A DNA stretch of 64,000 nt, from contig RPFO01000022.1 of assembly GCA_009746045.1 (NCBI GenBank), positions 414,001-478,000 of the forward strand. The letters run 5' to 3'. Position 1 is the first letter of the stretch, and every line of letters begins with the position of its first letter. Below, piece after piece: positions 10,804 to 62,681 of the stretch. The stretch comes from Mesostigma viride. Taxonomy: Eukaryota > Streptophyta > Mesostigmatophyceae > Mesostigmatales > Mesostigmataceae. Made by a program: the position numbers and the translations under genes. The notes under the pieces were generated by a model, which ran no database searches, was not told the DNA's origin, and saw only the letters and a program-made list of their open reading frames with translations.

Positions 10804-11073
10804 AGCTTGAGCGTGCTTGTAAAGTTTTTGCATGGTTTATTAAAATGAGTGGAATATGTATTTATTGCATTAAATGTTAATTTTATCATGAATGAAAATG
10901 GTCAACATTGCCGAAGTGCCCCTAAATTGCTCAATATTGTGTGCTCAAGAATTCAATGAGGATTGTCATCATGGAAACCCGCACAAATTCACGATTCCGG
11001 GCATGCATGTGAAAGTATCAAGAACAATTTTCAATTAAGAATGGTATCTCATTGTTCCATGAATCAATATGAC

Positions 11074-16958: not shown

Positions 16959-17484
16959 TTAATTAATTAATTAATTAAACTCGTGCTCCCGTTGGGGAGT
17001 CACGGAGCACCGAAGTGCTTTTAATCCCTGTGTGTGCACTACAGGAGAAAGGGCAGAGACCCCCAGTCTCCTTCATGCCAAAGGCATGCCACAGCTGCAA
17101 TCGGGCGCGGCTAGCTAAAAGGACAGGCTAACGATCCGGCAAACTGTGGGTGCAATAAGACCCATGTGAGCATATCATAGCAAGGAGCGTGGGCAAGTAA
17201 TCTGAACATAGCCAGGGCGTAGCATGGCTGTACTAGGACTAGGCTATGGCTGGTTGTGTACCGTGCGTTGGCGGCACGTGACTAGGTGTGTTGGCACAGC
17301 TAGGCAACATTCTAGGCATGGCTGCCTTAGCGGCAGTGACGCCAATGGTTACAAGCTAGGGCTATTGCTATTCTAGCCCGCTGGGGGCGTCCACATCTTG
17401 TGGTTGATCATCAGGTCCCCGCCCCTCCAGTACACCTTGGGCTTCTGGGGGTCCTGCTTATGGCGGAGGTATTCCGGCCACAGG
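16959..17484 (-). mobile_element. 5'-truncated non-LTR retrotransposon copy inside the satellite
   Basis: A 526-base non-satellite insertion sits between two copies of TGACACCA (16,951-16,958 and 17,485-17,492), an 8-bp target-site duplication. Read on the minus strand it starts within a coding C-terminus, runs through a 3' untranslated region and ends in a (TTAA)n tail at 16,959-16,978. This is the signature of a truncated LINE inserted by target-primed reverse transcription. It shows that the satellite is exposed to retrotransposition after its amplification. Confidence 0.85.
17373..17484 (-). pseudogene. C-terminal fragment of a LINE ORF
   Basis: The minus strand encodes a 36-residue tail, LWPEYLRHKQDPQKPKVYWR then GGDLMINHKMWTPPAG, before a TAG. 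The fragment begins abruptly at the 5' truncation point and has no start of its own. I assign it to a retrotransposon because of the (TTAA)n tail and the flanking duplication, not because I recognise the peptide. Confidence 0.6.
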
Positions 17485-20427
17485 TGACACCATGGGAGCC
17501 TGAATCCTCATCATTAATTACATACATGCCATCCATGTACGTAGGCCAGCCATGATGACACCATGGGAGCCTGAATCCTCATCATTTACTATTCCTTGAC
17601 ATCCATGTACGTAGGCCAGCCATGGAGACACCATGGGAGCCTGAATCCTCCTCGTTAATTACATAAATGCCAACCATGTACGTAGACAAGCCATGATGAC
17701 CCCATGGGAGCCTGAATCCTCATCATTAAATACTATTCCTTGACATCCATGTACGTAGACGGGCCATGATGACACCATGGGAGCCTGAATCCTCTTCATT
17801 AATTACATAAATGCCAACCATGTACGTAGACGGGCCATGATGACACCATGGGAGCCTGAATCCTCATCATTTTTTTTATGAAACATCCATGTACGTAGGC
17901 CAGCCATGATGACACCATGGGAGCCTGAATCCTCATCATTTTTTTTTCTTTGACATCCATGTACGTAGACGGGCCATGATGACACCATGGGAGCCTGAAT
18001 CCTCATCATTTACTATTCCTTGACATCCATGTACGTACACGGGCCATGATGACACCATGGGAGCCTGAATCCTCATCATTTACTATTCCTTGACATCCAT
18101 GTACGTAGGCCAGCCATGGAGACACCATGGGAGCCTGAATCCTCCTCGTTAATTACATAAATGCCAACCATGTACGTAGACAAGCCATGATGACACCATG
18201 GGAGCCTGAATCCTCATCATTTACTATTCCTTGACATCCATGTACGTAGACGGGCCATGATGACACCATGGGAGCCTGAATCCTCATCATTAATTACATA
18301 AATGCCAACCATGTACGTAGACGGGCATTGATGACACCATGGGAGCCTAAATCCTCCTCATTAATTACATAAATGCCATCCATGTACGTAGGCCAGCCAT
18401 GGAGACACCATGGGAGCCTGAATCCTCATCATTAAATACATACATGCCATCCATGTACGTAGACAGGCCATGATGACACCATGGGAGCCTGAATCCTCAT
18501 CATTAATTACATACTTGCCATTCATGTACGTAGACGGGCCATGGAGACACCATGGGAGCCTGAATCCTCATCATTTACTATTCCTTGACATCCATGTACG
18601 TAGACGGGCCATGATGACACCATGGGAGCCTGAATCCTCCTCATTAATTACATAAATGCCAACCATGTAGGTAGACAAGCCATGATGACCCCATGGGAGC
18701 CTGAATCCTCATCATTAATTACATAAATGCCATCCATGTACGTAGACGGGCCATGATGACACCATGGGAGCCTGAATCCTCATCATTAATTACATAAATG
18801 CCATTCATGTACGTAGGCCAGCCATGGAGACACCATGGGAGCCTGAATCCTCATCATTAATTACATAAATGCCAACCATGTACGTAGACAAGCCATGATG
18901 ACACCATGGGAGCCTGAATCCTCATCATTAATTACATAAATGCCAACCATGTACGTAGACGGGCCATGATGACACCATGGGAGCCTGAATCCTCATCATT
19001 TTTTTTATGAAACATCCATGTACGTAGACAGGCCATGATGACACCATGGGAGCCTGAATCCTCATCATTTACTATTCCTTGACATCCATGTACGTAGGCC
19101 AGCCATGGAGACACCATGGGAGCCTGAATCCTCCTCATTAATTACAGAAATGTTAACCATGTACGTAGACAAGCCATGATGACCCCATGGGAGCCTGAAT
19201 CCTCATCATTAATTACATAAATGCCATCCATGTACGTAGACGGGCCATGATGACACCATGGGAGCCTGAATCCTCATCATTAATTACATACATGCCATCG
19301 ATGTACGTACACGGGCCATGATGACACCATGGGAGCCTGAATCCTCATCATTTTTTTTTCTTTGACATCCATGTACGTAGACGGGCCATGATGACACCAT
19401 GGGAGCCTGAATCCTCATCATTAATTACATAAATGCCATTCATGTACGTAGACGGGCCATGATGACACCATGGGAGCCTGATTTCTCATCATTTACTATT
19501 CCTTGACATCCATGTACGTAGGCCAGCCATGGAGACAACATGGGAGCCTGAATCCTCCTCATTAATTACATAAATGCCAACCATGTACGTAGACGGGCCA
19601 TGATGACACCATGGGAGCCTGAATCCTCCTCGTTAATTACATAAATGCCATCCATGTACGTAGACGGGCCATGATGACACCATGGGAGCCTGAATCCTCA
19701 TTATTATATACAAAAATGCCATCCATGTACGTACACGGGCCATGATGACACCATGGGAGCCTGAATCCTCATCATTAATTACATAAATGCCATTCATGTA
19801 CGTAGACATGACATGATGACACCATGGGAGCCTGAATCCTCATCATTAATTACATACATGCCATCCATGTACGTACACGGGCCATGATGACACCATGGGA
19901 GCCTGAATCCTCATCATTTTTTTTTCTTTGACATCCATGTACGTAGACGGGCCATGATGACACCATGGGAGCCTGAATCCTCATCATTAATTACATACAT
20001 GCCATCCATGTACGTAGGCCAGCCATGATGACACCATGGGAGCCTGAATCCTCATCATTTACTATTCCTTGACATCCATGTACGTAGGCCAGCCATGGAG
20101 ACACCATGGGAGCCTGAATCCTCCTCGTTAATTACATAAATGCCAACCATGTACGTAGACAAGCCATGATGACCCCATGGGAGCCTGAATCCTCATCATT
20201 TACTATTCCTTGACATCCATGTACGTAGACGGGCCATGATGACACCATGGGAGCCTGAATCCTCTTCATTAATTACATAAATGCCAACCATGTACGTAGA
20301 CGGGCCATGATGACACCATGGGAGCCTGAATCCTCATCATTTTTTTTATGAAACATCCATGTACGTAGGCCAGCCATGATGACACCATGGGAGCCTGAAT
20401 CCTCATCATTTTTTTTTCTTTGACATC
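17485..20427. repeat. 71-bp satellite array, right block
   Basis: Continuation of the same satellite after the LINE insertion, with the same three spacer types. Blocks from the left part recur here: the rare variant ACAGAAATGTTAACC appears at about 15,291 and again at about 19,142 with similar neighbours. This indicates duplication of segments of a kilobase or more. Across both blocks there are roughly 120 units. The array ends in mid-unit after CTTTGACATC. Confidence 0.95.
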
Positions 20428-20440
20428 AACCGCTTCGCGA
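20420..20440. other. Junction between host satellite and viral DNA
   Basis: Within a few bases the sequence changes from satellite (ending TTTCTTTGACATC) to unrelated GC-rich DNA (AACCGCTTCGCGACGTGACC). No transition sequence, transposon end or duplicated target is visible on the left, and the right end of the viral block is outside the window. It may be a true integration boundary or an assembly join. Confidence 0.6.
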
Positions 20441-20686
20441 CGTGACCCCGAGGGACCTTCCCGTACGCTTCCCGTACGCTTCCCGGTAGTTCGCGGTAGT
20501 TCCTACTAGTTGCTAGTTAGTTCCCAGGGAGGGGTGTGGATAGTTCCCAGGGTCTATGGATTTCCCAGGAAATTGGGAGAAGTTCCCAGGAAATCCGATG
20601 AGATCAGGGACTTTCCAGGGACCCAAGGGTGTGCGCCAGGGTCCAGGACATTCCACGTGTCCGGGGACCCAGGGACAGTCCGGATG
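20428..20686. other. Non-coding terminal stretch of the viral block
   Basis: GC-rich DNA with short degenerate repeats (CCCGTACGCTTCCCGTACGC, GGTAGTTC, TTCCCAGG) that grade into the 28-bp array. No gene is supported; reading frames here run through repeats in all phases. Confidence 0.55.
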
Positions 20687-20910
20687 TCCGCGGGACCGAG
20701 GGACATTCCAGACGTCCGCGGGACCGAGGGACATTCCAGACGTCCGCAGGACCGAGGGACATTCCAGATGTCCGCAGGACCGACGGACATCCCAGATGTC
20801 CGCAGGACCGACGGACATCCCAGATGTCCGCTGGACCGAGGGACATTCCAGATGTCCGCGGGACCGAGGGACATTCCAGACGTCCGCGGGACCGAGGGAC
20901 ATTCCAGACG
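20687..20910. repeat. 28-bp tandem repeat, eight copies
   Basis: Eight exact-length copies of a 28-base unit (TCCGCGGGACCGAGGGACAT followed by TCCAGACG), with G/A/T and G/C changes in the middle copies. The unit length is not a multiple of three, so the array is open in all frames and produces four or more spurious ORFs. There are no unique spacers, so it is not a CRISPR array. It lies at the left end of the viral block, where terminal tandem repeats would not be surprising. Confidence 0.95.
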
Positions 20911-21094
20911 TCCGCGACGGGCAGGCGGGTATCCAGGGAGTGTGGTGTCGTAACCGCAATTCGGACGACGCCATATGGCTTGTCATACACCCGCCACGTG
21001 GCGCATATGGATTGGAGGGAAGTACGTGGAGGTCGGGGAACCACGGGGAGTACGAGGGAAAAATGTGTACGGGGGAAGTATCCGGAACTCCCAC

Positions 21095-21646
21095 ATGACC
21101 GTCGCGTCGCCGTACCACAGGCGGGAAGGTGCCGCGCCCGACGCCCGCCGAAAGCGAATGCTGCAGCTCGCCGCCGCGCAGGGGATCCCGCCGGCCGTGC
21201 AGCAGTCGTCCGGGTTCCTCCAGACCGCGTTCAACGGCGTGCTCAAGCTGCTGTTCCGGAAAGTGGGCTCGAAGATTATCCGCGAGGCGATCAAGCGGGA
21301 GGGGGGTCTCCAGGCCCTCCTAAAGTTCAATTCGCCCCTTAAAGCTTTTAACATGGGCGGGCTGCAGAGCTACCTCGGCACCAAAGGGGCGCGCGTGGCC
21401 AGGGCGGTGCGGATCGGCATCCGCGTCGTACGCATTGTCATGATGGTCGGGTACGTCATACCCAAGGGACTCGAGGAGTTCGACGTGATGGAGCTCGCGG
21501 CCGGGACCGCGGCCGACGGGTACGACCGCACGCACGACGCGATCGTCGGGATCGAGGGGGACGAGGACGAGGAGCTGGCGGCGCTCGCGGCGGCGGGCGC
21601 GGTCGAGGAGGAGCTGTCCGTCGACGACGAGATCGTCTATTTTTAG
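21095..21646 (+). CDS. Hypothetical protein with amphipathic membrane-like helix and acidic tail
   Basis: 183 residues from the ATG at 21,095 (MTVASPYHRREG); an earlier in-frame ATG would place the start inside a region that looks non-coding. The N-terminal third is basic. Residues around 110-130 (GARVARAVRIGIRVVRIVMM then VGYVIPKG) form a positively charged amphipathic or membrane-seeking helix. The last 40 residues are Asp/Glu-rich and end DDEIVYF. The codon use matches the other viral genes. It lies 66 bases upstream of the next gene on the same strand. I do not recognise a family; a small virion or membrane-associated protein is plausible. Confidence 0.65.
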   Translation: MTVASPYHRREGAAPDARRKRMLQLAAAQGIPPAVQQSSGFLQTAFNGVLKLLFRKVGSKIIREAIKREGGLQALLKFNSPLKAFNMGGLQSYLGTKGARVARAVRIGIRVVRIVMMVGYVIPKGLEEFDVMELAAGTAADGYDRTHDAIVGIEGDEDEELAALAAAGAVEEELSVDDEIVYF

Positions 21647-21711
21647 CCGACGGGCCCGGCGGCGGCGGCGAAATCTTCTGCGCGAATCGTATCCGGATCC
21701 GGACCCGAACC

Positions 21712-22188
21712 ATGTCCGACGTGCGCGTGCTGACGATCCACTCCGACGCGGCGAACGTGACCGACGCGACCACGAGCGCGGCCAACGAGTGGCTCGTGAC
21801 CGTGTCGGCCGACGAGTCCGCGCCTTTGCTCGGCCCGCGGTGGAAGATGCATCTGCTCTACGCGTGCGTGAAGGGCTTCGTGCCCGCGGGCACCAGCCGG
21901 GTCGTGGGGATCTACTCGGACGGGTTCCTCGGGGCGGCGGACGGGGGGATGACGCTGTTGGCGGCCGAGACGGCGCTCTCGAACCTCGCGTCCGACGTCA
22001 CCGTGGTCAACCAGCAGAATTACTTGCCCGTCGCGAACCCGCGGCTGCTCAGGGACGGGGGCTCGTTCCGCGTGCGCATGTGCCACCTGGACGCGGCCAG
22101 CCCGCTGACCGCGGGCGCGCGGCCCGTCGTGGGCGACTGGACGCTCGTGCTGCGGCTCGAGATGCTGGGCAGCAAGCCGCGGACGTGA
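21712..22188 (+). CDS. Hypothetical beta-rich protein, possible virion component
   Basis: 158 residues (MSDVRVLTIHSDAANVTDAT). Alternating hydrophobic strands and phrases such as NEWLVTVSADES, VVGIYSDGFLG and GDWTLVLRLEMLGSKPRT suggest a compact beta-sandwich. Similar strand patterns occur in the other putative structural proteins in this block (25,088 and 33,298 genes). There is no signal peptide or membrane span. It is the second of two plus-strand genes at the left end, 66 bases after the first, and is followed by 2.4 kb of repeats. Function unknown; a capsid decoration or fibre protein is one possibility. Confidence 0.7.
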   Translation: MSDVRVLTIHSDAANVTDATTSAANEWLVTVSADESAPLLGPRWKMHLLYACVKGFVPAGTSRVVGIYSDGFLGAADGGMTLLAAETALSNLASDVTVVNQQNYLPVANPRLLRDGGSFRVRMCHLDAASPLTAGARPVVGDWTLVLRLEMLGSKPRT

Positions 22189-22280
22189 GCGCGCGCGGGC
22201 GCCGGCGGAGACGAGGGGCGGAGGGTGGCCAGAGGGGGAGGTGCACGATGGCGGACTCGGTTCGGATGTGAGCTTACTCG

Positions 22281-22660
22281 GGCTGATTCCTCTGGAAGGA
22301 GAGATCACAGTGTAAATCCTCTCTGATGTGAGACGATTCGGGCTGCTTCCTCTGGACACGAGGTGCGTGATGGCTGATTCCTCTGGGGAGAAGTGCGTGA
22401 TGTTTGCTTCATCTGGACAGGAGGTGTGTGATGGCTGATTCCTCTGGAAGGAAGAGATCACAAGGTGATTCATCTGCAGAGGAAGACGTCGCCGGGCTGA
22501 TTCCTCTGGAAGGAAGAGATCACAAGGTGATTCATCTGCAGAGGAAGACGTCGCCGGGCTGATTCCTCTGGACACGAGGTTGCTTCATCTGCAGAGGAAG
22601 TCGTAACAGGGGTGATTCCTCTGGAGACGAGGTCCTGCAGAGGAAGACGTCGCCGGGCGA
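22281..22660. repeat. Direct repeats around CTGATTCCTCTGG, including a 62-bp tandem pair
   Basis: The motif CTGATTCCTCTGG and its TTCATCTG(G/C)A relatives recur about a dozen times. Two perfect 62-base copies are adjacent (22,434-22,495 and 22,496-22,557), and partial copies lie on both sides. The minus strand is open across it (LPEESA and QMNHLVISS repeats), but this reflects the repeat and not a gene. Confidence 0.85.
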
Positions 22661-22681
22661 TTCCTCTGGACGAAGGCGAGA

Positions 22682-22990
22682 TTCGGCTCGGCCGGTGTAG
22701 ATTGCCACGTGGAGAGGTTCTATTGGACGGGAGCTTTGGCGCGGCCGGTGTAGAGTGCCACGTGGCGCGATTCTATTGGTTACGAAATTTGGCGCGGCCG
22801 GTGTGGAGCGTGGCCGTGGGGGAGTGGAAGGGGCGCGGGGAGGCCACGGGGAGCCACGGGAAGGCGGGGGAGGCCACGGGGAGGCCACGGGGAGTCACGG
22901 GGAAGGAGGGGAAGGCGGAGGCGTAACCGAAATTCGGCGAATCCGATTGGACGCGAGAATTGGCGCCGTTGACATAGAGAGTGCCACGTG
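22682..22990. promoter_or_regulatory. Repeated promoter-like modules (E2F-like, CACGTG and inverted CCAAT boxes)
   Basis: A 53-base period module is present at about 22,682 and 22,735, with a partial third copy from 22,788. A more distant copy lies near 22,945-22,995. A full module holds TTTGGCGC (an E2F-type core), GCGGCCGGTGTAGAGTG, the palindrome CCACGTGG and then TCTATTGG (inverted CCAAT). No gene starts immediately downstream, so activity is not shown. Alternative explanation: a simple GC-rich repeat in which such boxes arise by chance. Confidence 0.4.
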
Positions 22991-23027
22991 GCGTCGACGG
23001 ATTTGACGGAACTATAAGCGCCGCGCC

Positions 23028-23860
23028 AGAGACGGGTGCACCCTCTGTTCCACCCTCCCTTTTTGCCCTCTTCACCCCCTTTTTTGACCCCCGAAAACCC
23101 CCTTCCCGACCCCCGAAAAAGGCCTGTTCCGGTGTTCCGGCTCCCCCCCCCTGGGCCGGTATCATTCTGAAAAAAAAATTTTCTGGGACCAAAATCCTCC
23201 GTTTCGGACTTAGCCGATTTCGGCCTCTCCTCTTCCCCTTTCTCTCCCTCCCTTCCTTCCTCTCTCTCCCTCTCCTTTCTCTCTCCCTCTCCTTTCTCTC
23301 TCCCTCTCCTTTCTCTCTCCCTCTCCCTCTCTCTTCTCCCCTCTCTTCCCGTCCCTATATATCCAGGGGTATAGGGTTCTATCTATTTATTTTTCCTATA
23401 AAATCAGTTTATAAAAAGATACCGGCACGCCATCCCGGAAATAGGATATATAAGACGGTGTCCTATTCACGCCCCACGGTTAAATAGGACGAATAGCCGC
23501 CTATATATACCGTTCCTATTCCCGGAGGGGGCGTGCTGGTATCATTCTAAAAAGTAGATAGTAGGAAAATATATAGACCCTATACCCTGGATATGTAAAG
23601 ACGGGGAGAGAGAGGAGAGAGAGGGAGAGGGAAGAGGGAAGAGAGAGGAGGAGGCCGAAATCGGCTAAGTCCAAAACGAAGGATTTCGGTCCCAGAAAAA
23701 TTTTTTTTCCGAATGATACCGGCCCAGGGGGGGGGAGCCGGAACACCGGAACAGGCCTTTTTCGGGGGTCGGGAAGGGGGTTTTCGGGGGTCAAAAAAGG
23801 GGGTGAAGAGGGCAAAAAGGGAGGGTGGAACGGAGGGATGCACCCGTTTCGGGCCGAATC
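23028..23860. repeat. Imperfect long palindrome (inverted repeat) of about 0.8 kb
   Basis: The left arm, about 23,028-23,240, is the reverse complement of about 23,655-23,860. Landmarks are the CCGGTATCATTC / GAATGATACCGG edge, the GGTGTTCCGGCTCC stretch and the long C-rich GACCCCCGAAAA runs. Inner parts (about 23,350-23,460 against 23,500-23,590; CCAGGGGTATAGGG against CCCTATACCCTGG) continue the pairing towards a centre near 23,480. Pyrimidine and purine runs sit inside each arm. It could be a replication-related hairpin, a former genome end, or an inverted duplication. ORFs here are artefacts. Confidence 0.8.
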
Positions 23861-24054
23861 GGCGCGGCGCTCCGAGTATCGGCCAATCGGATCGCTCGGT
23901 TTTGGCGGGAAATTGGGGGAATTCGGCGCGGCGCTCTCCGTGGAGATCTCGGGCTGACTCGGGGAGTTTCGGGTCGATCGGGGACTCTCGGGTCGGATCG
24001 GGGACTCTCGGGCCGACTCGGGTCGAATCGGGCCGACTCGGGTCGAATCGGAGG

Positions 24055-24420
24055 GAGAGGGGAGAGGGAAGAGAGAGGGGAGAGAGAGAGAGGAGGCCGA
24101 AATCGGCTAAGTCCAAAACGAAGGATTTCGGTCCCAGAAAATTTTTTTTTCCGAATGATACCGGCCCAGGGGGGGGGAGCCGGAACACCGGAACAGGCCT
24201 TTTTCGGGGGTCGGGAAGGGGGTTTTCGGGGGTCAAAAAAGGGGGTGAAGAGGGCAAAAAGGGAGGGTGGAACGGAGGGATGCACCCGTTTCGGGCCGAA
24301 TCGGCGCGGCGCTCCGAGTATCGACCAATCGGATCGCTCCGTTTCGCCGATGTGACGGATGGCGCGGCGCTCCGAGTAGCGACCAATCGGATCGCTCGGT
24401 TTTGGCGGGAATTTTGGGGA
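24055..24420. repeat. Direct copy of the palindrome's right arm plus CCAAT/E2F-like repeats
   Basis: About 24,055-24,340 repeats about 23,595-23,890 in the same orientation with few changes. It ends in the GCGCGGCGCTCCGAGTA unit, which then recurs at about 24,361. Each of these three units (near 23,865, 24,307 and 24,365) has a CCAATCGGATCGCTC box. Two continue into TTTGGCGGGAAA (23,901-23,912, an exact E2F consensus) or TTTGGCGGGAAT (24,401-24,412). The last unit is 230 bases upstream of the ATG at 24,645. Confidence 0.7.
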
Positions 24421-24644
24421 CGGGTAGGGTCCTGGCACGAGGAGATCCACGGGAAGGTCCACGGGGAGGTCCACGTACGGCGCGCCGGATCCGCGGGACT
24501 CCCGTGTCGGTTCGGAGGATCGGAGGATCGGATCCGTGTCGGTTCGGAGGATCGGGAGGAGTGCGCCTACATGAGCCGCCGAGACCCTCGTCTCCCCTCA
24601 TCCCTTCCTCTCTCCCTCTCAACGATAGAAGCGCGCACGGTAGA

Positions 24645-51268: not shown

Positions 51269-51745
51269 TTAATTCAGAGGAGTGAGCGTCGCTCTAGGCC
51301 CCGCGGGCGATCCGCCGAGTCTCGCGGGCCTTTCCCTGTAATACATGTAAATCAGCGCGCCCGCTATCCCGGCGCCCGCGAGAAGGAACAAGAACCCGTT
51401 GTTCCGCGCCTCTTGGTTCGCGATCTCTCTCACCCGGTTCTCGAACATCGCCTGCTGTCTCGCCACGCGGGCCGCCTGGTCGACGTTCGCGGGCCGGCGA
51501 CTCATACTGCCCGGAGGAGGAGCGAGCGGGCTGTTCACGTTGATGGTCTCGCGGTCCGTCAGCCCGCCCCCGCCCGACGACCCCGCGTGCGACTCCTTGT
51601 ACGCGAACGGGTTCGACCGGTCCGACGTGCCCGGGAGAGGCGCGACGGGCGCCGACGGTTCGGGCGCGGAGGCTATTTCCCCGCCGCCGTCTTCGCTCGC
51701 GAGAGGCGAGAAGGAGAACGCCTTGCCGAGAGGGGCGCCGCTCAT
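51269..51745 (-). CDS. Membrane protein with C-terminal single span
   Basis: 158 residues (MSGAPLGKAFSFSPLASEDG). The N-terminal 110 residues are Ser/Pro/Gly-rich and predicted disordered. Residues about 117-138 (NGFLFLLAGAGIAGALIYMY) form one transmembrane helix, followed by a basic YRERPARL tail. This topology (long outside or inside arm, one anchor) is common among inner-membrane virion proteins of giant viruses. It lies 79 bases from the next minus-strand gene. No family recognised. Confidence 0.7.
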   Translation of the reverse strand: MSGAPLGKAFSFSPLASEDGGGEIASAPEPSAPVAPLPGTSDRSNPFAYKESHAGSSGGGGLTDRETINVNSPLAPPPGSMSRRPANVDQAARVARQQAMFENRVREIANQEARNNGFLFLLAGAGIAGALIYMYYRERPARLGGSPAGPRATLTPLN

Positions 51746-51824: not shown

Positions 51825-52457
51825 TCAATCGACGTATTCCGAAACCGTGGTCCCGGCCACCGACAGTCTCTTGGCGACGACGGCCTTCTTCTTGGCCGCG
51901 ATCGCGGGACGGACGTGGTTCCGGAAGACGCGTTCCAGGAACTTCTCGATGTAATGGCTGTCGGATTTCGTCGGGATCTCCGCCGCTTCCGCCCACTCGG
52001 CCAGCACCTGGAAGAACCGCGCGATCGCCTTCACCTCGCCGGGCTCGCAGTTGGGATACACGTCCTGTGCGAAGAACTTCTCGAATTCCTCGCGGTTGGC
52101 GCACGCGAGAAGGACGGGCACGATCCGTTCGATGACGCGCAGGGCCGTCCGCGCGTCGCCGGAGATGCTCTCCTCCGCCGTCCGCCACCCGTCGAGGATG
52201 GCGTCGATGGCGGTCTTGATGTCCTCCGGCAGGTCCTTCTGGATGGCCATGTTCATCAGACAGACCACCTCGACGTCGTTCACCGCGCCCTCCAGGTCCC
52301 CCGCGTCGATGACGTTCGTGAGACGGACGACCAGGTTCCTCATGATCCGCTTCGTGGCCGCCTCGTCCTCCCCGAGGATGCCCATGCCCGTCTGGATCAT
52401 GGAGGGCGGGAACTTCCACGTGGCCAGCTTACCGCGCAGTTTTACCTTGACGTCCAT
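51825..52457 (-). CDS. Hypothetical helical protein, 210 residues
   Basis: The ATG at 52,457 (MDVKVKLRGKLATWKFPPSM) is chosen because the upstream frame is shadow. The protein is almost entirely alpha-helical (ATKRIMRNLVVRLTNVIDAG, EFEKFFAQDVYPNCEPGEVK) and ends RLSVAGTTVSEYVD. No membrane span or metal site. It is the middle of a three-gene minus-strand run (51,269; 51,825; 52,520). Function unknown. Confidence 0.7.
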   Translation of the reverse strand: MDVKVKLRGKLATWKFPPSMIQTGMGILGEDEAATKRIMRNLVVRLTNVIDAGDLEGAVNDVEVVCLMNMAIQKDLPEDIKTAIDAILDGWRTAEESISGDARTALRVIERIVPVLLACANREEFEKFFAQDVYPNCEPGEVKAIARFFQVLAEWAEAAEIPTKSDSHYIEKFLERVFRNHVRPAIAAKKKAVVAKRLSVAGTTVSEYVD

Positions 52458-52519
52458 GGCGGGCGAGCGTCGTTCTATTGGTACAGGGCAAAAAAAACGA
52501 GCGCGGAACGCGGCGGCGT

Positions 52520-52750
52520 TTACAAGGGGATCGGCAGCATCGGGTTGATGATCGCCCAGAACAGGACCAGGGCCACGAACGTGTACCCCAGGTTCCGCCA
52601 GAAGTACTTCTGGTACAACGGGTCGAGCGGGCGCTTGTTCGCGGCCGAGGACGCGGCGGCGGCGGCGGCGAACGCGATGAGCGACGTGCGGATCGTGTCG
52701 GCCCAGAGCGCGGTATAGAAAGGGGGGATGTACGAGGCCACGTACTCCAT
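52520..52750 (-). CDS. Small membrane protein, 76 residues
   Basis: MEYVASYIPPFYTALWADTI opens a 76-residue protein with two hydrophobic stretches: an Ala-rich one (SLIAFAAAAAASSA) and a clear span, NLGYTFVALVLFWAIINPML, at the C-terminus. GTATAC at 52,771-52,776 lies about 20 bases upstream of the start. Divergent from the plus-strand gene at 52,853, with 102 bases between the two starts. Probably a virion or infected-cell membrane protein. Confidence 0.7.
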   Translation of the reverse strand: MEYVASYIPPFYTALWADTIRTSLIAFAAAAAASSAANKRPLDPLYQKYFWRNLGYTFVALVLFWAIINPMLPIPL

Positions 52751-52852: not shown

Positions 52853-53401
52853 ATGTCGGCGATCCAGGCGTTCAACGCGATGATGAGGTCCTTCCTGGAG
52901 GAGCTGGAGATGGCGTTCCCGGACGAGAAGTCCATCGCGGGGGTCAACTCCGCCTTCCAGCTCGCGTGCAAGACCAACGCGCGCATGCCGCTGAACGCGT
53001 ACATGTCGAGCGTCACCCCGCACATGGCCAAGATCTCCGCGAAGGACCCCTCCTTCTTGACCCAGGCCGGGTTCGCGGACGTGCCCTACTTGAAGGACAT
53101 CAACATCCGCAAGCACTGGGACAAGGCGCCCGAGGCCACCAAGGAGGCCATATGGCAGTACCTCCAGACCCTGTACATCATCGGGTACGGCATCTGCGAG
53201 ATGCCCGAGGAACTCCTGCGGCAGGCGGAGGCGAAGGCGCAAGAGTTCGCGGACAAGGTGCGGTCGTCGGGCCAGGACCCGAACAAGGCCTGCGCCGCCC
53301 TCTTCGACGACATGATGTCCGCCGTCGCCCCCCTCGCCGCCGAGCCCAGCTTCACCTTCCCGATCGCCGAGGCCGCGGAAGACGAGGAGGGGTCCAAGTG
53401 A
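52853..53401 (+). CDS. Conserved giant-virus helical protein (FLEELE type)
   Basis: 182 residues, intact. The N-terminus IQAFNAMMRSFLEELEMAFP then DEKSIAGVNSAFQLACKTNA, the middle HMAKISAKDPSFL, and KHWDKAPEATKEAIWQYLQT then LYIIGYG follow the pattern of a widespread unnamed nucleocytoviral protein: 'F..FL.EL...FP', a 'kd..Fl' step, and 'W.....e.k..IW.Yl..L'. It ends in an acidic tail (EAAEDEEGSK). It is a small, soluble, all-alpha protein; no function is established for the family. Good independent support for a Nucleocytoviricota origin. Confidence 0.75.
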   Translation: MSAIQAFNAMMRSFLEELEMAFPDEKSIAGVNSAFQLACKTNARMPLNAYMSSVTPHMAKISAKDPSFLTQAGFADVPYLKDINIRKHWDKAPEATKEAIWQYLQTLYIIGYGICEMPEELLRQAEAKAQEFADKVRSSGQDPNKACAALFDDMMSAVAPLAAEPSFTFPIAEAAEDEEGSK

Positions 53402-53964: not shown

Positions 53965-56900
53965 ATGGAGGACGACGCGGACGAGGTCGCCGCCCGACCG
54001 ATCGCCCCCATCCGCCAGGGCACGAGTCATCCGCTGCACGTCCGCAAGCTGATCGCGATGGCCGTGCACACGCGGAAGGAGAGGAAGGAGAAGCTGTATC
54101 AGATCGCCGAGCGGTTCGGCGTCGACCGCAAGACCGCGCGGGTGTACCACAGGCTGTGGGTGGACGACGGCAAACCGGACTACGCGGACGAGGAGGAGAT
54201 CCGACGGTCCGTGTTGCGGCCGATGGCCCGGCGGACGATCGACGAGGACACGGGGAAGTACACGAGCGAGCGCAGACTCACGCGCGGAGAGCGGAGGTTC
54301 GGCACGGAGGAGAAGTGGCGCCGGGTCGCGGCCAAGATCGTGGAGATCCAGACGGCCGCGCCGACGTTCACGGCGTCCGACATCGCGGGGTTCACGAACC
54401 GCAACGGCGCGGACGCCCCGGGGTCGACGAGGACGCTGTTCGCGGAACTGAAGGCGCTGTGCGGCGCCGCAGTGGCTTTGGACGATCGGGACGTCCAGGC
54501 GGCGCGGAAGATGGGCGACCTGACGTACAAGAAGATCGCGTACGACTACAAGGACCGGGACGCGAAGAACGTGGCCGCCAAGAAGAAGGCGTTCGTCGAG
54601 ATCCAGAAGCACCTGTTCGCGGAGGACTGCGTGTTCGTGGACGAGTTCAGCGTCGTCATGAACGCGGTGCCCACGAGGGGGTGGGGAAGAAGGGGGAGAT
54701 GCCGTACGTCCGCAAGAGGGAGCAGACGGACACGCGGACGACGGTCATCGCGGCGATGCGATGGCCGTCCGAGAACCGGGAGAACATGAACCTCCCTCCC
54801 GCCATGTTCCTGAGGATCTTCCCGCCCATCCCGTCCCGCATCTCCAATAACTACCCCGCTCTCAACGCGGTCCAGGATCGGGACGCCGAGAGGTTGCGGT
54901 CCGAGATGTGGTGGGAAGGGCTGGGGTTCGTCATGGGGGACTGGTGCAAGAAGAAGGACGGGGGACGGGACCGCGTCCGGCTCGCGTCTCTCCGAGCCCC
55001 CATCGAGGCCATGGCGAGACGGGGGGAGGCGCTGTACGATTGGATCACGAACGGCGCGGCCTCGTTCCCCTTCGGCATGGACGCCGAGGTGTCGAACTCC
55101 GTCCTCCCCACCGAGTTCTGGGACTTTCCCGCGGACGGGTCCAAGGAGAGACTGGTGAAGGACTCGTTCGCGAGGAGCGCCATGTGGGCGGACTACTGGA
55201 ACCACCTGCCCGGCCATCCGATCGCCGACCTGGTGGAGCACACGGACGACCGGAAGGAGAAGGTGACGTTCGTCCTCCGTCTGGCCGCGCACGACTACTT
55301 CTTGTGGGCGCACGTCCGCATGCACAACTACATGGTGGACGGGGCCCAGTTCGGGGAGAGGCCGCCGTTGGGCGCGTCGTGGCTCGCGTCCGGCGACGCG
55401 TCCCTGATCGTGGCCAAGGTGCTCGAGGGGACGAGGACCCGCGCCGAGAACAGTCTGCTGAAATACGACGACACCAAGGGCACGTTCGACGACCAAGACG
55501 ATTCGGAAGAGAGCATTTCCAAGATGTTGGGAGAGCTGCACGGCCTTTTTCGGAACTCGGACTACGAGACCATCTTCTTTTCGCTTTTCGAGACCGTCAC
55601 GGCGGACCACGAGAGGAAGTTCACGCACTTGCACAACCTGTTCTTCAAGGAGACGAGCGTGTTTTATTCGAGAGATTACGTCGACGGTTACAAGAACCGG
55701 AACACGACCTACGACTTCCTGTTGGCCAGGGAGATCTACAAGAACCTGAACCTCGCGTTCAAGAGGGACGGCGCGGCGAACCAGTCGCTGGGGAAATGGG
55801 AGATCGCCGCGCACGTGTGGAAGATGGTGCACACGTACGGGGGCGACAAGGACCGTCTGATCGACCCGACGCTCGACTCCGTCCGTCTGGCGTCCGTGGC
55901 GGAGACGGGAGTCCCGTACACGTTCGGGGACCGCGGGGAGGAAGACGCCTTTTTCAACGGCGATTTTTACCCGGACAAGTTCGCGCAGTACCTGCGGGAC
56001 AACGAGCGTGTCCAGATCAAGCAGACGCGGGCCCAGGTGTCGCGGATGTCCTTCGCCCGTTCGCAGATGCGCGAGCGGTACATCGGCGCCGCCCCGATGT
56101 CCGTGGACGGGTGGTTGTTCAAGGAGTTCCTGAAGAACCTCCCCGACAGCTTCGTGGTGGACAAGACCGTCATCATGGACGGCGCGGCCATCCACGCCCG
56201 GCCGACGGACGGCGAGATCCGATTGAACTCCAAACTCCCCGACGCGTTGTCCGTGTTCCCGGAATCCGAGTTGAGTCCGTTGGCGCAACTGCTCAGACGG
56301 CGCGGAGGGGGCGACGGCGTGTTGTTGCCGCCGACGAAAGAGACGTTCTTCGAGTACGGTTTGGACGCGCAGAATCGTCGAGTGGTCCGAGGTCTCGCTC
56401 GCCGTCCCGCGCTGCTGTACACGCCGCCGTACTCCCCGGAGTTCAACCCGATCGAGTTGGCGTTCAATCCGGGAAAGAAGTTCATACGGCGAGAGGTCGC
56501 GCGGCACACGCGGACGCGGTGGAACCTGTCGATCGCCATCATAAACGCGCTCAACGTCCTCACGCGGCCTCACGCGATCAAGAACTACATGCTCTGTTCG
56601 GGCTATCGCAGCAAGGCGATCGGGGTGACGCCGTCGCTGTCCAGGACGATCGTGACAGAACCGGACGACGCCGCGAACCCGAACGCGAACGACGCCTTTT
56701 ACACGAACGTGAGGACGAAGAGGACGGGCGCGTGTCTCGGGAAGATGGCGGAGGGGAAGTACCCCGATCCTTCCAAACCCCCCTCGCGCGCCTTGACGAC
56801 CGTCGTGCGCGCGGACGAGAAGAAGGATTTCGAGAGGGACGAGACGACGTACTTCTGTCCGGCTGCGAACCCGGTCGCGCCCGGCGCCGAGTACTTCACC

Positions 56901-57689
56901 AAGTACGACGTGCGGAAGGGCGACGATGGCCAGATCCGAGCGGTCCAGTGCGTCCGGAAGGGCGTCAAGGACTACAAACTAGGCGAACACGTCCGCGTGT
57001 TGTGGCAGGGCGCGTGGCGGCGCGCGAAGATCGAACGATTGCCCGAGGCGAACAAGAACACGCGCACGCCGTCCAAGACCAAGGTCACGAACAGCCCCTG
57101 GTTCACCGTGTCCCTCTCGGACACGAACGAGTCCGTGCGCGTCATGATCTCGAAGATCCGGCCGTCCAAGGGGAAGATCCGCAAATTGATGGCCAAGCAC
57201 GAGCGAATGGTCGAAGAGATCGAGGCGCGCAATCGGGACGTGATCGCGAAACGGGTCGCGGAATGGACGGCGCAGCGCCGCCGCGCGACGGACCTGCGCG
57301 CCGACCTGCGAATGTCTCGCGCGTTCACCTCCGCGGAGGCGCTCGACGCCGTCCGAGTGGCCGCGCGGAGGATGGAGAAACACGAAGACGCGGTGCGCGA
57401 GTCGATCGCGCCCGCGTTACGGGCGTGGAGCGCGTCGAACGCGGCCGAGACGCCGGGGGCTACTCGACGCGCCGCGGCTCTCCGTCCCGATCCGGCGCTG
57501 ACGAGGTCGCGGACCGCTCGCGGCGGAGTCGGTCTCCCAGGTGGCGGCGGTACCACATCCGGCGCCGTTCCTTCCGCGACGGGCGCGGCGGGGGCGGCGG
57601 GTCCGTCTGCATCTCCGACTCCGGCGCCGCCGCCGGTTCCGAGACGCGAGATGGCTCGGCTGCCTCGAGTGTACGCGTCTTTCTACTGA
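53965..57689 (+). CDS. Giant IS630/Tc1-mariner-type DDE transposase with large inserted domain (one frame break)
   Basis: About 1,240 residues once one G is restored at about 54,680 (GGGG), which yields RGWGKKGEMPYV, the expected IS630 sequence. Residues 43-65 hold a helix-turn-helix (QIAERFGVDRKTARVYHRLW). D1 is D226 in CVFVDEFSVV. D2 is at about 738 in KTVIMDGAAIHA (codon 56,178). The final Glu is at about 830 in PPYSPEFNPIEL (codon 56,454). D1-D2 are thus about 510 residues apart instead of about 90. The extra domain (about 270-700) is helical with WDFPADGSKERLVKDSFARS and LRLAAHDYFLWAHVRMHNYM. D2-E is about 92 rather than about 34. A C-terminal part (about 950-1,060; KLGEHVRVLWQGAWRRAKIE) resembles a Tudor/SH3-like barrel, followed by a Pro/Ala-rich tail. 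All three catalytic residues are kept. It could drive viral or transposon integration, or be a repurposed protein. Confidence 0.8.
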
Positions 57690-57759
57690 CGAGGATCGCG
57701 CACGGGAGCAGGAGGGAGTAGAACGTCACGAGCGTGAGCGCGAGGACGAACGTGATCAT
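57460..57759 (-). CDS. Possible small membrane protein overlapping the transposase 3' end
   Basis: 99 residues from the ATG at 57,759: MITFVLALTLVTFYSLLLPC is an uncleaved signal/anchor. A basic-proline tail follows (DPPPPPRPSRKERRRMWYRR). It overlaps 230 bases of the C-terminal Pro-rich tail of the transposase on the other strand. Both frames read well, and I cannot tell which is real there; the transposase frame from 57,460 to its stop may be the spurious one. Confidence 0.5.
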   Translation of the reverse strand: MITFVLALTLVTFYSLLLPCAILVSRKTRTLEAAEPSRVSEPAAAPESEMQTDPPPPPRPSRKERRRMWYRRHLGDRLRRERSATSSAPDRDGEPRRVE

Positions 57760-57868
57760 CGCGAAACGCGGGTTCTTCGAGAATGCGGGAGATTCGAAAT
57801 GCGTCCCGCTGACCGCGCGTCGAAAAAAAATATGTGTCCGTACGTGTATATCTCACCGTCCGAACGCC

Positions 57869-58198
57869 ATGCCAGTGGGTAGCCGCCGCCAAGTTCTGAA
57901 CGGGACCGTCGACCGCACGAGCGGAGGGTTGGATCGCAGCGATCTCACCGTAAACAAGCGCAACCGCATCGTCTCCAGGAAGAAGATCACGCAGGGGAGG
58001 AAGCAGTTCAAGAACGTGTCCGATTGGAACAAGCTCGTGACGTACATCAACGATCACACGGGCAAGAATCTGCGGGATTCCATGATGCACGCGAAGAGGA
58101 TGACGGCCAGCGAGCTGAGCCGGCGCAGGCTGTCCGCGACGCCCGCGAACAAGCGCAAAGTGTGGCCGTACCTCATCGATCAGATGAAGCGAGGATAG
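57869..58198 (+). CDS. Small basic conserved giant-virus protein
   Basis: 109 residues, Lys/Arg-rich (MPVGSRRQVLNGTVDRTSGG). NKRNRIVSRKKITQGRKQFK then N.SDWNKLVTYIND and KRKVWPYLIDQMKRG fit a family of small basic nucleocytoviral proteins with a 'KRgRiVSkKk...Gkk.yKn...W' signature. Probably DNA-binding and virion-associated. The start is the ATG that is 28 bases after GTATAT; the upstream frame is shadow. Confidence 0.75.
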   Translation: MPVGSRRQVLNGTVDRTSGGLDRSDLTVNKRNRIVSRKKITQGRKQFKNVSDWNKLVTYINDHTGKNLRDSMMHAKRMTASELSRRRLSATPANKRKVWPYLIDQMKRG

Positions 58199-58954: not shown

Positions 58955-59075
58955 TTCTATTAACCGTGGAACTCCAGGGTAACCAGACTCTTTATTAAAA
59001 CAATGAGTGGAGCACATACAAAAGGCAGGCCACATCCCGGCCGCCGATGCTCATGGGAACACTTATTGCTTGGCA
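58955..59075 (-). repeat. Split direct repeat b, distal copy
   Basis: 121 bases, TTCTATTAACCGTGGAACTC to TATTGCTTGGCA on the plus strand. Same length and, by eye, same sequence as 59,549-59,669. Its edge is the left end of the element. The end of the RT frame (ISVPMSIGGRDVACLLYVLH) is encoded in both copies. Confidence 0.9.
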
Positions 59076-59116
59076 AAGGCTAGCCTCACCCCCAAACACG
59101 CAGGGAGGGTGGGCGG

Positions 59117-59549
59117 GAAAAGAAAAGAGGCCGACCTTAGCTAGGTGGGTTTGTTTTTGTCCTTTTTTGCGTGTCATGCGGCCTTGGCCCGGACGGCATT
59201 TTTTCGCCACGCAAATGTTGCGTCTGAACAAATGACGCAATGTGGCGTTCTAATTGCCGGCAGCTTACGTAAGGCTGCCGGGGCTATTAGGTCACATATT
59301 GCGTGAGAGAAAGAATCTAGATCTAGTTAATCACTACGCCATGAGCCAAGAAACCTAGACAGTGGCAGGTTTATATCTCAACGTAGCTCCTGCCACCTGG
59401 CCAAGAAAAACTGGCCAAAGCTTTGGCCACGACTGATCCGGATCAGGCCGCACCGGCCTCAAAAGGTATGTCACGTGAACCCAATAACCTAGCTATAGCG
59501 GCTACCCTTCCATCTCACTATAAAGAAACTATGTTCAGAGAACCACGAT
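59117..59549 (-). repeat. Split direct repeat a, internal copy
   Basis: 433 bases from GAAAAGAAAAGAGGCCGACC to TTCAGAGAACCACGAT, matching 62,249-62,681 in length and, as far as I compared, in sequence. It abuts repeat b at 59,549. Confidence 0.9.
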
Positions 59550-59669
59550 TCTATTAACCGTGGAACTCCAGGGTAACCAGACTCTTTATTAAAACAATGA
59601 GTGGAGCACATACAAAAGGCAGGCCACATCCCGGCCGCCGATGCTCATGGGAACACTTATTGCTTGGCA
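59549..59669 (-). repeat. Split direct repeat b, proximal copy
   Basis: 121 bases that include the 3' end and stop of the RT reading frame (59,589). They are directly fused to repeat a. Confidence 0.9.
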
Positions 59670-61427
59670 CCACCGCCCCAAGACGGCAGCCAGCCCCTCG
59701 GCCGTAGCTCGGCCTCGAGTGAGTATAGCCTGCGTGTGGGCGATCACAAGGTTGAGCTGCTTGACCGTTGGTTCCAGCACGCCGTTCCGTCGGTGCACCA
59801 CCCCTAGGGCTTCTAGCTCGTCCCCTTCCAGGCTCGCCATCTTAGTCTTCTCCTGAGACGGCACAAGGTTGTTAGGGAGGTAGCCTTCCTCAATAGCGCG
59901 CGTGATGAGCTGGTTCACCGCCTCGCAGGTCCGCCCGTTGCTGGCCACCAAGTCATCAATGGTGATTGACAGCATGGGGGCAGGGGGCTTTTCCAGGTCA
60001 ATCTGAAGCTCCCCGGCGCGCTCCTCCTTGTACTCGATGGCCAAGCGCAGTGGCTGGCCACACTCGTCGCGCACCAAGGTGAGCTCACCTGCGCTTGAGA
60101 GGTAGTTGACCTGGCGCCTCGGATCCAGGGCACCGGTCATGTAGAGCACCATCTCATGGATGGCCTCCCCCAGCGCCACCGCATGGGAATGTCCCATGGC
60201 CAGCACCTTGAGCACGGGCCACACCTTCCGCCTCGGCCCTGCCAGACCTACGCTAGTCGACCACACACTAGGAAGCCCTTGGTAGTCCCACCACCACTCG
60301 GGCACCTCGATGGAGTAGTAGTATGACACGAGGTCGCTCTTGGCGCAGTAGCACCAGCCCTTGATGTAGACCTCCACGAGGATGCCCAGGTGGGGTAGCA
60401 GGATCTTGGGCGGGTCCACCCACAGCAGGTTGCCCAGCTTCCTGTTGACGATGAACCGAAGCTCGCCCACCCCCTTGGCCACTCCAAAGCAGCCATCCAC
60501 CCACTTGGGCCGCCGCTCCCGGAACGCCACCATGCCCACGCCCGCTGCCCGGCTCATGAGCTTGCCCCATTCATCCATGGAGCATCCCCGGCTGGGCTTG
60601 GGCACATTCCAATACTTTGCGCTCGCCACGACCGCTGGCTTGATGCAGTTCTCTTCGCTGGCATATATCTCCCGCCAGCTTGGCCGCATAGCCAACAGGT
60701 CGAGCAGCCGTGCCTTCCCCGCCACCTCCGCCTTTGGTAGACTCACCGCGTCCGCGCGCAGTTGTTCATACTTATTCTGCTTCCCATATATTGCATCAGC
60801 ACCTTCTTGCTCCTGGCCTGTCGCAACGCCCCCTACGCGGCGACTGTGCCAGGTGCAGTGCCTCTTGACCCTCGCAAGGGCCTCCTCCCTCCCCTTAGAG
60901 CACGCCCCTCTAGGGTTAGGAGGAGGGTCTTGCCCCCCTCCCCACAGCCAATTAAGCCAACGCACTACCTTGCATTGCAGTGTGTACTCGCGGTGGCGGC
61001 GCGTGGCACGCTGTCGCCGGCGTGCCGATCTCACCCTGCCCCACGCGGTGTACGCTGGCCTAAGTGGGTATGGCAGCGGGAAAAGGGAGCGGTCCCGCTG
61101 GGATTCTATTTCCCTACTTGTTGAGCCTTGCTGAGCTTGTCCAAGAGGATCGCAGTTTGGAGAGCTGCCTTGACAGCCGGGGTGGCTGACAGTGCAGCCT
61201 CCTCCCCCAATGGCAGGAGGTGGCTGGCCACCTTCCACCCCCCCCCTCCTTGCCCCTCCACCTGCAGCAAGGCCGCCCCCACCCTCATTAGGTACTCCAT
61301 GCCCACAAGCTCCCCGGCTGCTGAGCCCAGCTCCTTGAGAAGGGTGTCCATGGCCAATGCAATGTTCATGACAATTTTCCTGTTCTCCATGTTCCGCCAA
61401 TTTCCAGGCTTTACCGTCATGACCCAC
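59589..61427 (-). CDS. Reverse transcriptase of the PAT/DIRS-like element
   Basis: The frame is open over 612 codons; the first 110 overlap gag and are probably untranslated, so the protein likely begins near 61,100. RT blocks are LRFIVNRKLGNLLWVDPP, motif A CYCAKSDLVSYYYSIEVPEW, motif B VLAMGHSHAVALGEAIHEM, and motif C MLSITIDDLVASNG with the two catalytic Asp. The thumb region then has LEALGVVHRRNGVLEPTVKQ. This pattern fits DIRS-like rather than LTR or LINE enzymes. The frame runs into repeat b after LAAVLGRW and stops, so the RNase H and recombinase parts are deleted. Confidence 0.8.
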   Translation of the reverse strand: MGHDGKAWKLAEHGEQENCHEHCIGHGHPSQGAGLSSRGACGHGVPNEGGGGLAAGGGARRGGVEGGQPPPAIGGGGCTVSHPGCQGSSPNCDPLGQAQQGSTSREIESQRDRSLFPLPYPLRPAYTAWGRVRSARRRQRATRRHREYTLQCKVVRWLNWLWGGGQDPPPNPRGACSKGREEALARVKRHCTWHSRRVGGVATGQEQEGADAIYGKQNKYEQLRADAVSLPKAEVAGKARLLDLLAMRPSWREIYASEENCIKPAVVASAKYWNVPKPSRGCSMDEWGKLMSRAAGVGMVAFRERRPKWVDGCFGVAKGVGELRFIVNRKLGNLLWVDPPKILLPHLGILVEVYIKGWCYCAKSDLVSYYYSIEVPEWWWDYQGLPSVWSTSVGLAGPRRKVWPVLKVLAMGHSHAVALGEAIHEMVLYMTGALDPRRQVNYLSSAGELTLVRDECGQPLRLAIEYKEERAGELQIDLEKPPAPMLSITIDDLVASNGRTCEAVNQLITRAIEEGYLPNNLVPSQEKTKMASLEGDELEALGVVHRRNGVLEPTVKQLNLVIAHTQAILTRGRATAEGLAAVLGRWCQAISVPMSIGGRDVACLLYVLHSLF

Positions 61428-62161
61428 GACCGGATTCCCATCCCATTGTCGCTGGCGTCCTCCAACACCCCCGGCAGCACCCGCTCCGAAATCCGATATT
61501 TCACGCTCTTGGCTCGGCTTGGCAGCGCCACCCCTTTCGAGGCCTTGAAGTGGCTTCCCGCCCCCTCCATTCCTCCCAGCGCTGCCTTCAAACCTTGCAT
61601 GAATTTCTCGGCTGCGACCTCCCCCTCCTCGTCCTCCTCGTCCTCCTGATTTTCGGTTTCCGGAGGTGCCCCAACGAATGTCGCCAACCTCGCCCTCATT
61701 TCCTTTCCGACAGCCCCCCCACCTGCCGAAACCTTGGCCGCGCCTTTCGGCTTGGCCATTTTTCGTTGCGCAGGTGTCGTTGGTGGCAGCGCCTGATCCT
61801 CCTCCTCGTCCGCCGCGAGATCTGCCACGGCCAGCAGTTTTGCCACCAACGTTCCGTTTGGGTCACGTGCGTCCAACACGTCGCCAACATCAACGTGATC
61901 GGCCAGCAACTGCACGACAGACTTCAGCTGGCTCGAGCTCCACGAGCTGGCGTCCGTCACCCAGTCCTCGGCACCGAAGACCTGCTCGACTGCCCCCACC
62001 GCCTCTGCGGGGCTGATGCACTTGGCGAGCAGAGTGGCGAGCTGCTTCTTTTTGGCGCTGAAGGCGACTGGCGCGTGACTGGCGGCAGCAGCCCGCGGTG
62101 TGGGCGTCCCGTCCTCCCCGCGCGCTGCCTGCCCTCCTGTAGCTTTGCGCCCCTTCGGCAT
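61106..62161 (-). CDS. Gag-like protein of the PAT/DIRS-like element
   Basis: 351 residues, starting MPKGRKATGGQAARGEDGTP 88 bases after the 5' repeat. Basic N-terminus, helical SAKKKQLATLLAKCISPAEA, an acidic linker (NQEDEEDEEGEVAAEKF) and a helical C-terminal domain (MTVKPGNWRNMENRKIVMNI). No zinc knuckle. The assignment as gag rests on position before the RT and size, not on a recognised family. Confidence 0.65.
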   Translation of the reverse strand: MPKGRKATGGQAARGEDGTPTPRAAAASHAPVAFSAKKKQLATLLAKCISPAEAVGAVEQVFGAEDWVTDASSWSSSQLKSVVQLLADHVDVGDVLDARDPNGTLVAKLLAVADLAADEEEDQALPPTTPAQRKMAKPKGAAKVSAGGGAVGKEMRARLATFVGAPPETENQEDEEDEEGEVAAEKFMQGLKAALGGMEGAGSHFKASKGVALPSRAKSVKYRISERVLPGVLEDASDNGMGIRSWVMTVKPGNWRNMENRKIVMNIALAMDTLLKELGSAAGELVGMEYLMRVGAALLQVEGQGGGGWKVASHLLPLGEEAALSATPAVKAALQTAILLDKLSKAQQVGK

Positions 62162-62248
62162 TGCTGCTCAGGGCCAAAAATGGCTCCGACAGTACAGGTT
62201 CGTCAAACCAGAGGTTCGTTTCCCCTGGCTTGCTGTCGCCGCCCTCGT

Positions 62249-62681
62249 GAAAAGAAAAGAGGCCGACCTTAGCTAGGTGGGTTTGTTTTTGTCCTTTTTT
62301 GCGTGTCATGCGGCCTTGGCCCGGACGGCATTTTTTCGCCACGCAAATGTTGCGTCTGAACAAATGACGCAATGTGGCGTTCTAATTGCCGGCAGCTTAC
62401 GTAAGGCTGCCGGGGCTATTAGGTCACATATTGCGTGAGAGAAAGAATCTAGATCTAGTTAATCACTACGCCATGAGCCAAGAAACCTAGACAGTGGCAG
62501 GTTTATATCTCAACGTAGCTCCTGCCACCTGGCCAAGAAAAACTGGCCAAAGCTTTGGCCACGACTGATCCGGATCAGGCCGCACCGGCCTCAAAAGGTA
62601 TGTCACGTGAACCCAATAACCTAGCTATAGCGGCTACCCTTCCATCTCACTATAAAGAAACTATGTTCAGAGAACCACGAT
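62249..62681 (-). repeat. Split direct repeat a, 5' terminal copy
   Basis: 433 bases, identical in length to 59,117-59,549. The right edge (CCACGAT followed by CCCGTGTATGGG) is the element/virus boundary; 36 bases later the next viral gene begins. Confidence 0.9.

Follow-up and report, generated by a model that had tools for sequence, protein, structure and literature searches.

Results

A split gene in a proviral region of an algal genome

The window analysed here is a stretch of 64,000 bases (positions 414001-478000) on a 5.8-Mb contig in the 440-Mb genome of a Mesostigma viride-type green alga. At positions 53965-57689 of its forward strand it holds a gene made up of two overlapping open reading frames (ORFs), A and B, that encode one protein, a DDE recombinase, and that are split by a one-base break (Table 1). 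Frame B ends at 57689; its open stretch starts at 54156 and contains an in-frame ATG at 54699. Frame A matches residues 10-239 of an intact relative, P0001, with 70% identity over 233 positions, and frame B matches residues 241-1233 with 72% identity over 1005 positions. Since P0001 (1233 residues; source 'lgn', on a contig of 11,985 bases) spans both frames as a single uninterrupted frame, the window encodes this same protein, interrupted by a single break in the frame.

An earlier note on this DNA had raised the question of whether the break is real and widespread, and the comparison with other copies indicates that it is not general among the diverged ones. Six of the seven near-identical copies fetched from the same genome (L014-L020) carry at least one break, and one is open through the break site and over all that its contig holds. 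Among 16 diverged loci, 11 carry a single long open frame, extending from P0001 residue 20 or before to residue 971 or beyond, and five are broken or short; the break is therefore not a family feature. Programmed frameshifting occurs in some IS630 elements, but it was rejected as an explanation here, given that the diverged relatives have an uninterrupted reading frame. Two EukProt gene models of Mesostigma viride (P0002 and P0003) match at 98-100% identity over 31-35% of the query; both omit stretches of the gene, and P0003 skips the break site, as if it were spliced. The protein database search, in which scoring was confined to the 7986 candidates with the most words in common, returned P0001, the two algal gene models and three weak IS630-type matches (E 0.33-0.36). 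No confirmed relative of the protein was found in the phage collection, nor in viral contigs searched with the protein and with its neighbouring genes, and a search of genome contigs with P0006 found no relative.

Catalytic triad and relationship to IS630-type transposases

The evidence strongly supports the assignment of the protein to the DDE recombinases of IS630/Tc1/mariner type, as the earlier note had proposed from its motifs. In P0001 the triad consists of D228, D741 and E833, with 513 residues between the two aspartates (D1-D2) and 92 between the second aspartate and the glutamate (D2-E), and the figures of about 510 and 92 first given for the window, where the spacing is assigned by homology, are thus right. 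D1-D2 measures 513-551 residues in all 12 family rows that cover both positions, as against some 80-90 in the IS630/Tc1/mariner superfamily, and D2-E measures 75-92 in all 13 rows, as against some 34-35; the latter spacing is 75-79 in 11 rows and 92 in P0001 and L016, which are of the window's own type. Family members retain all three acidic residues as well as the PPYSPxxNPIE motif. The Pfam model DDE_3 scores 32.4 bits in frame B and 47.7 bits in P0001 (cut-off 28.6), and at an E-value of 0.01 it is found in all 13 aligned members, together with HTH_23 in one of them and with no match to the retroviral rve model in any. The NCBIfam IS630 model NF033545 matches P0001 in two stretches (E 1.2e-16) with 61 bits, below its curated cut-off of 100 bits, and a profile comparison of the 13 family members with eight IS630-type proteins yields a probability of 98 (E 2.3e-13), in the D2-E part only.

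For a direct alignment with bacterial IS630 transposases, 80 loci were kept, of which 57 were examined, 49 were free of stops and bore the expected motifs, and 42 were left after removal of near-duplicates. When aligned with the 13 family members, all 42 place D1, D2 and E on the three residues of the family, and none of the 42 does so when the rows are reversed. Since the IS630 rows are related to one another and behave as a block in the alignment, this should be read as one strong agreement and not as 42 independent ones. The five IS630 rows that were printed have spacings of 80 (D1-D2) and 35 (D2-E). When P0001 was aligned by MAFFT with only three short IS630-type proteins, their D1 fell on the D2 of P0001; the triad is in register in the alignment of the 13 family members with the 42 IS630 rows. 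Strictly speaking, the protein falls outside the IS630 family: its spacings differ from those of that family, its score lies below the cut-off and no flanking repeats of the expected kind were found.

Predicted fold, inserted domain and barrel

A structural model of the intact relative L021, predicted with IS630 rows in the alignment, contains an RNase H core of the mariner/Sleeping Beauty kind in which D1 lies on strand 1, D2 follows strand 4 and E opens the last helix of the core. The check suggested by the earlier note, namely whether the fold closes with the three acidic residues together, thus came out in its favour, with the residues at standard RNase H positions in predictions that include the IS630 rows and only in these. 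The model of L021 also has a helical domain of some 435 residues inserted into the core, after strand 3 and before helix 1. In other transposases, large insertions are most often found between D2 and E. At the N-terminus, helices 18-63 of the model form a helix-turn-helix (HTH), and the alignment with Mos1 begins at residue 14; HTH_23 remains below the Pfam cut-off in P0001, as it does in the window. Downstream of the core, the barrel that had been noted as possibly Tudor/SH3-like is predicted in 10 of the 13 aligned members, so that a Tudor/chromo-like barrel is likely in most of them, and a long tail extends beyond it. A Foldseek search of the viral fold library BFVD gave no match at an E-value of 0.001 or better.

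Copies in the genome and selection

The protein search of the genome produced 52 rows, with 39 of 9541 candidates scored, and the counts drawn from it are lower bounds. Once grouped, these rows locate the gene at no fewer than 34 places, window included. The near-identical copies share with the window not only the gene but also its flanks, up to position 58955. Beyond that position, the stretch 58956-62680 of the window is an insertion of about 3.7 kb that is absent from six of these copies (L015-L020) and holds an ORF (59589-61427) that we read as reverse-transcriptase-like and that has no Pfam match; the seventh copy, L014 on contig C1499, is interrupted by other DNA near the same place. Sixteen further places (L021-L036) are diverged; 11 of them are in the alignment, ten being 35-67% identical to the eleventh, L021. 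By our own grouping they represent some nine lineages, or ten with that of the window, and counts over diverged places are not independent because some of the places are near-copies of each other. Synonymous change is the greater: dN and dS are estimated, for instance, at 0.162 and 1.43 for L022/L025 and at 0.004 and 0.03 for L030/L031, with dS above 1.5 or saturated in nine of the 13 pairs compared. The gene is under purifying selection across about ten lineages.

Viral neighbourhood

That the gene is a resident viral one, as the earlier note had supposed, is borne out by its surroundings. A DVNP gene lies downstream in all 16 diverged loci (tblastn; weakest E 8.5e-5), and three upstream genes recur in many of them (Table 1). 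Some of the upstream neighbours that were missed fall at contig or fetch ends; at L026 and L030 these genes are missing though the sequence is present. The algal genome bears a very heavy load of giant-virus DNA, with at least 150 matches to Capsid_NCLDV on 93 contigs. Among the matches listed, the capsid gene lies within 37 kb of the DDE gene in 22 of the 34 places, including near-identical copies of the window's virus; the other 12 places, the window's among them, have none within 60 kb, the window's own contig has none at all, and for 71 of the 93 contigs with a capsid match there is no corresponding place of the DDE gene. Genes with DUF5767 and DUF5764 lie on the same contig as the window gene, and past the right end of the window (L037) there is an ORF with a weak AAA_10 match, which we take from its motif to be an A32-like packaging ATPase. 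Altogether, it is strongly supported that the gene is a resident of endogenous Nucleocytoviricota in a Mesostigma viride-type alga.

Terminal inverted repeats, which the earlier note had proposed to look for, were not found above shuffled controls in the 575 and 621 bases around the gene, where the best score was 10 and shuffles gave 8-13. A wider test returned one match of 14 bases (at most 12 in 20 shuffles), both arms of which lie within neighbouring coding sequence.

The edge of the provirus

At position 20427 of the window a minisatellite, taken for host DNA, ends, and sequence begins that is shared with another copy. The terminal 31 bases that begin there occur at 29 places in the genome with at most three mismatches, and a control pattern at none. 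The 22 places that were read show 13 distinct flanks, with the boundary at the identical base. The two bases that precede it are CT, GA, AA, AA, CC, GC, TA, AT, GC, GT, CC, AT and CT, the last belonging to a diverged version on contig C1579. TA, the mariner target, is thus present in one of the 13 flanks and CC, that of phaeoviruses, in two, and neither is required, given the variation of the preceding dinucleotide. Directly against the viral edge the window carries a long array (11000-20430) with a unit of about 71 bases, as judged from match offsets, and the terminal 4 kb of the provirus (20647-24500) are rich in short tandem and inverted repeats.

Table 1. Positions of the features discussed in the text (window coordinates unless a locus is named).
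Feature	Position	Strand	Evidence
Left proviral edge, terminal sequence against minisatellite	20427..20457	+	same 31 bases at 29 places
Conserved upstream viral gene	51269..51745	-	tblastn: 9/16 diverged loci
Conserved upstream viral gene	51825..52523	-	tblastn: 10/16 diverged loci
Conserved gene directly upstream	52853..53401	+	tblastn: 11/16 diverged loci
Frame A: HTH and D1, N-terminal part	53965..54789	+	ORF; P0001 match
Helix-turn-helix, predicted DNA-end binding	54037..54175, approximate	+	HTH_23 E 0.0041, below Pfam cut-off; L021 model
D1 codon (VDEF)	54640..54642	+	IS630 block aligns D1 here, via relative L021 D235
One-base break between frames A and B, within purine-rich run	54680..54700	+	ORFs; P0001 alignments
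Frame B: insertion, D2, E, Tudor-like barrel, tail	54699..57689	+	ORFs; P0001 match; Pfam DDE_3
Inserted helical domain	54828..56100, approximate by homology	+	model elements; absent from IS630 rows
D2 codon (MDGA)	56178..56180	+	D in 13/13 family rows; IS630 block aligns here
Longer D2-E stretch	56202..56402, approximate	+	about 57 residues beyond spacing of 35
E codon (PPYSPEFNPIE)	56454..56456	+	E in 13/13 family rows
Tudor/chromo-barrel-like domain	56970..57166, approximate limits by homology	+	
DVNP gene directly downstream	57869..58198	+	Pfam DVNP E 2.6e-13 on 57734-58195
DUF5764 gene	L037:4425-5066, past right end of window		Pfam
Packaging-ATPase-like ORF	L037:6148-6969, about 12 kb past gene		weak AAA_10, below Pfam cut-off

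Discussion

With the bacterial IS630 transposases the protein described here shares the D-D-E order, the motifs DE[TS], [LM]DN...H and PPYSPxxNPIE and the alignment of the C-terminal helices, but it departs from them in both spacings, in the additional residues of its core, in the barrel and in being a fixed viral gene. The inserted domain and the barrel also set it apart from Tc1/mariner elements such as Mos1 and Sleeping Beauty, as do the failure to find inverted repeats around the gene and the presence of TA in only one of the 13 flanks at the proviral edge. Its long D2-E spacing is already known from the Submariner subgroup of Tc1/mariner, which has 75-86 residues there according to passages of PMC4495683, and the value of 92 obtained from the earlier note, although correct, is for this reason no novelty; most of the family falls within the Submariner range, and the window's own type lies just outside it. 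The same passages report Submariner in Acanthamoeba, an aphid, a nematode, bacteria and an archaeon, link it to Pandoravirus MITEs, and describe neither a long D1-D2 insertion nor a Tudor domain. The viral copies in that case are short and non-coding, and the gene here is a resident one. Both the barrel and the insertion between the aspartates are new.

Among giant viruses, phaeoviruses integrate by means of a tyrosine recombinase at a CC dinucleotide, and for punuiviruses a retroviral-like DDE integrase has been proposed, as stated in parts of PMC13236599. The former resembles the present case in its possible role, that of inserting a giant-virus genome into a chromosome of an alga, but it belongs to a different enzyme class and is tied to a dinucleotide that is infrequent at the edges read here; the latter differs in that all our rows match DDE_3 and none rve. 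A Tc1-like DDE protein of Sylvanvirus (A0A3G5AK55, 805 aa) is another long giant-virus protein of this kind, and its weak Foldseek match (E 1.5) makes it a lead, not a demonstrated relative. In the openly licensed literature, judged by titles and the openings of abstracts, we found no paper on giant viruses of Mesostigma or on IS630/mariner proteins in connection with Nucleocytoviricota.

Like the earlier note, we infer a role in integration or DNA processing, and the reading that we favour, with a probability of about one half, is that the protein is the integrase of these endogenous giant viruses. The HTH would bind the ends of the viral genome, and the D-D-E site would use two metal ions to cut these ends or to join them to host DNA. 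The inserted domain may hold or pair the DNA ends, and the barrel might steer the complex to chromatin, by analogy with the chromodomains that direct some retrotransposon integrases there. Together, these steps would bring about viral integration. More tentatively, the system might constitute a third integration machine of giant viruses, in addition to tyrosine recombinases and retroviral-like integrases: one derived from mariner/IS630, with a new domain between the aspartates and a fused chromatin reader, which about ten diverged proviral lineages of a single streptophyte alga retain as a core gene and which acts on a fixed viral end while choosing its targets freely.

Several observations weigh against the protein being an integrase of this kind. 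Solved structures, searched by sequence, gave no transposase core, and in the prediction made without the IS630 rows the catalytic core stayed under pLDDT 50. On the window's contig, no second end with the terminal sequence appears among the matches listed. Seven rows, on as many contigs, share one GC-rich flank before the terminus that is possibly viral; either a duplication common to them or a head-to-tail join would account for it. At L138 the interior differs after the first 31 bases. Finally, L121 and L122 (C1579:9786025 and 9889254) are an inverted pair of the diverged terminus, 103 kb apart, with some 85 identical outer bases; the repeat of this pair is longer because its flanks are identical.

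The alternatives fare differently in the face of these data. A former transposase may have been retained, perhaps with its catalysis, for another task on viral DNA, such as the processing or packaging of ends, the resolution of replication intermediates or the organisation of viral chromatin in the vicinity of DVNP. Its constant place directly before that gene, its Tudor-like barrel and the putative packaging ATPase further on are all in keeping with such a role, but the conservation of the acidic residues and of PPYSPxxNPIE, and the presence of the viruses in chromosome-sized contigs with an exact edge, render it rather unlikely. It is somewhat more doubtful that another enzyme, for instance a tyrosine recombinase or a retroviral-like integrase, inserts these proviruses. 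Both routes have been described for other endogenous giant viruses (in parts of PMC13236599), and at the single provirus edge located here no target duplication was read; yet neither enzyme type is among the 24 ORFs scanned with Pfam, which cover part of the provirus, and the edge has no fixed preceding dinucleotide. These two explanations overlap in part. A selfish, self-moving IS630/Tc1-type transposon merely housed in the virus would explain the family resemblance, and giant viruses do carry transposons (passages of PMC4495683 and PMC13236599); this we consider largely refuted and very improbable, as the near test gave no inverted repeats around the gene that exceed those of shuffled sequence, gene order is kept across diverged viruses where a moving element would change places, and the near-identical copies share their flanks too. 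A decayed or mis-assembled relic, in which a general break leaves no full protein, would account for the broken or short copies and for the stretches missing from the gene models, but for the family this and a general pseudogene are refuted by the long open frames of the diverged loci, by the intact P0001 and by a dN far below dS.

On the question of how most giant viruses enter the chromosomes of their hosts, the integrase reading offers a candidate enzyme of unusual build, with about ten diverged natural versions and a defined viral end. If it is correct, a cut-and-paste transposase became the integrase of a giant virus and gained a chromatin-reading tail along the way, and the RNase H core would be able to accommodate a large extra domain at the junction of strand 3 and helix 1.
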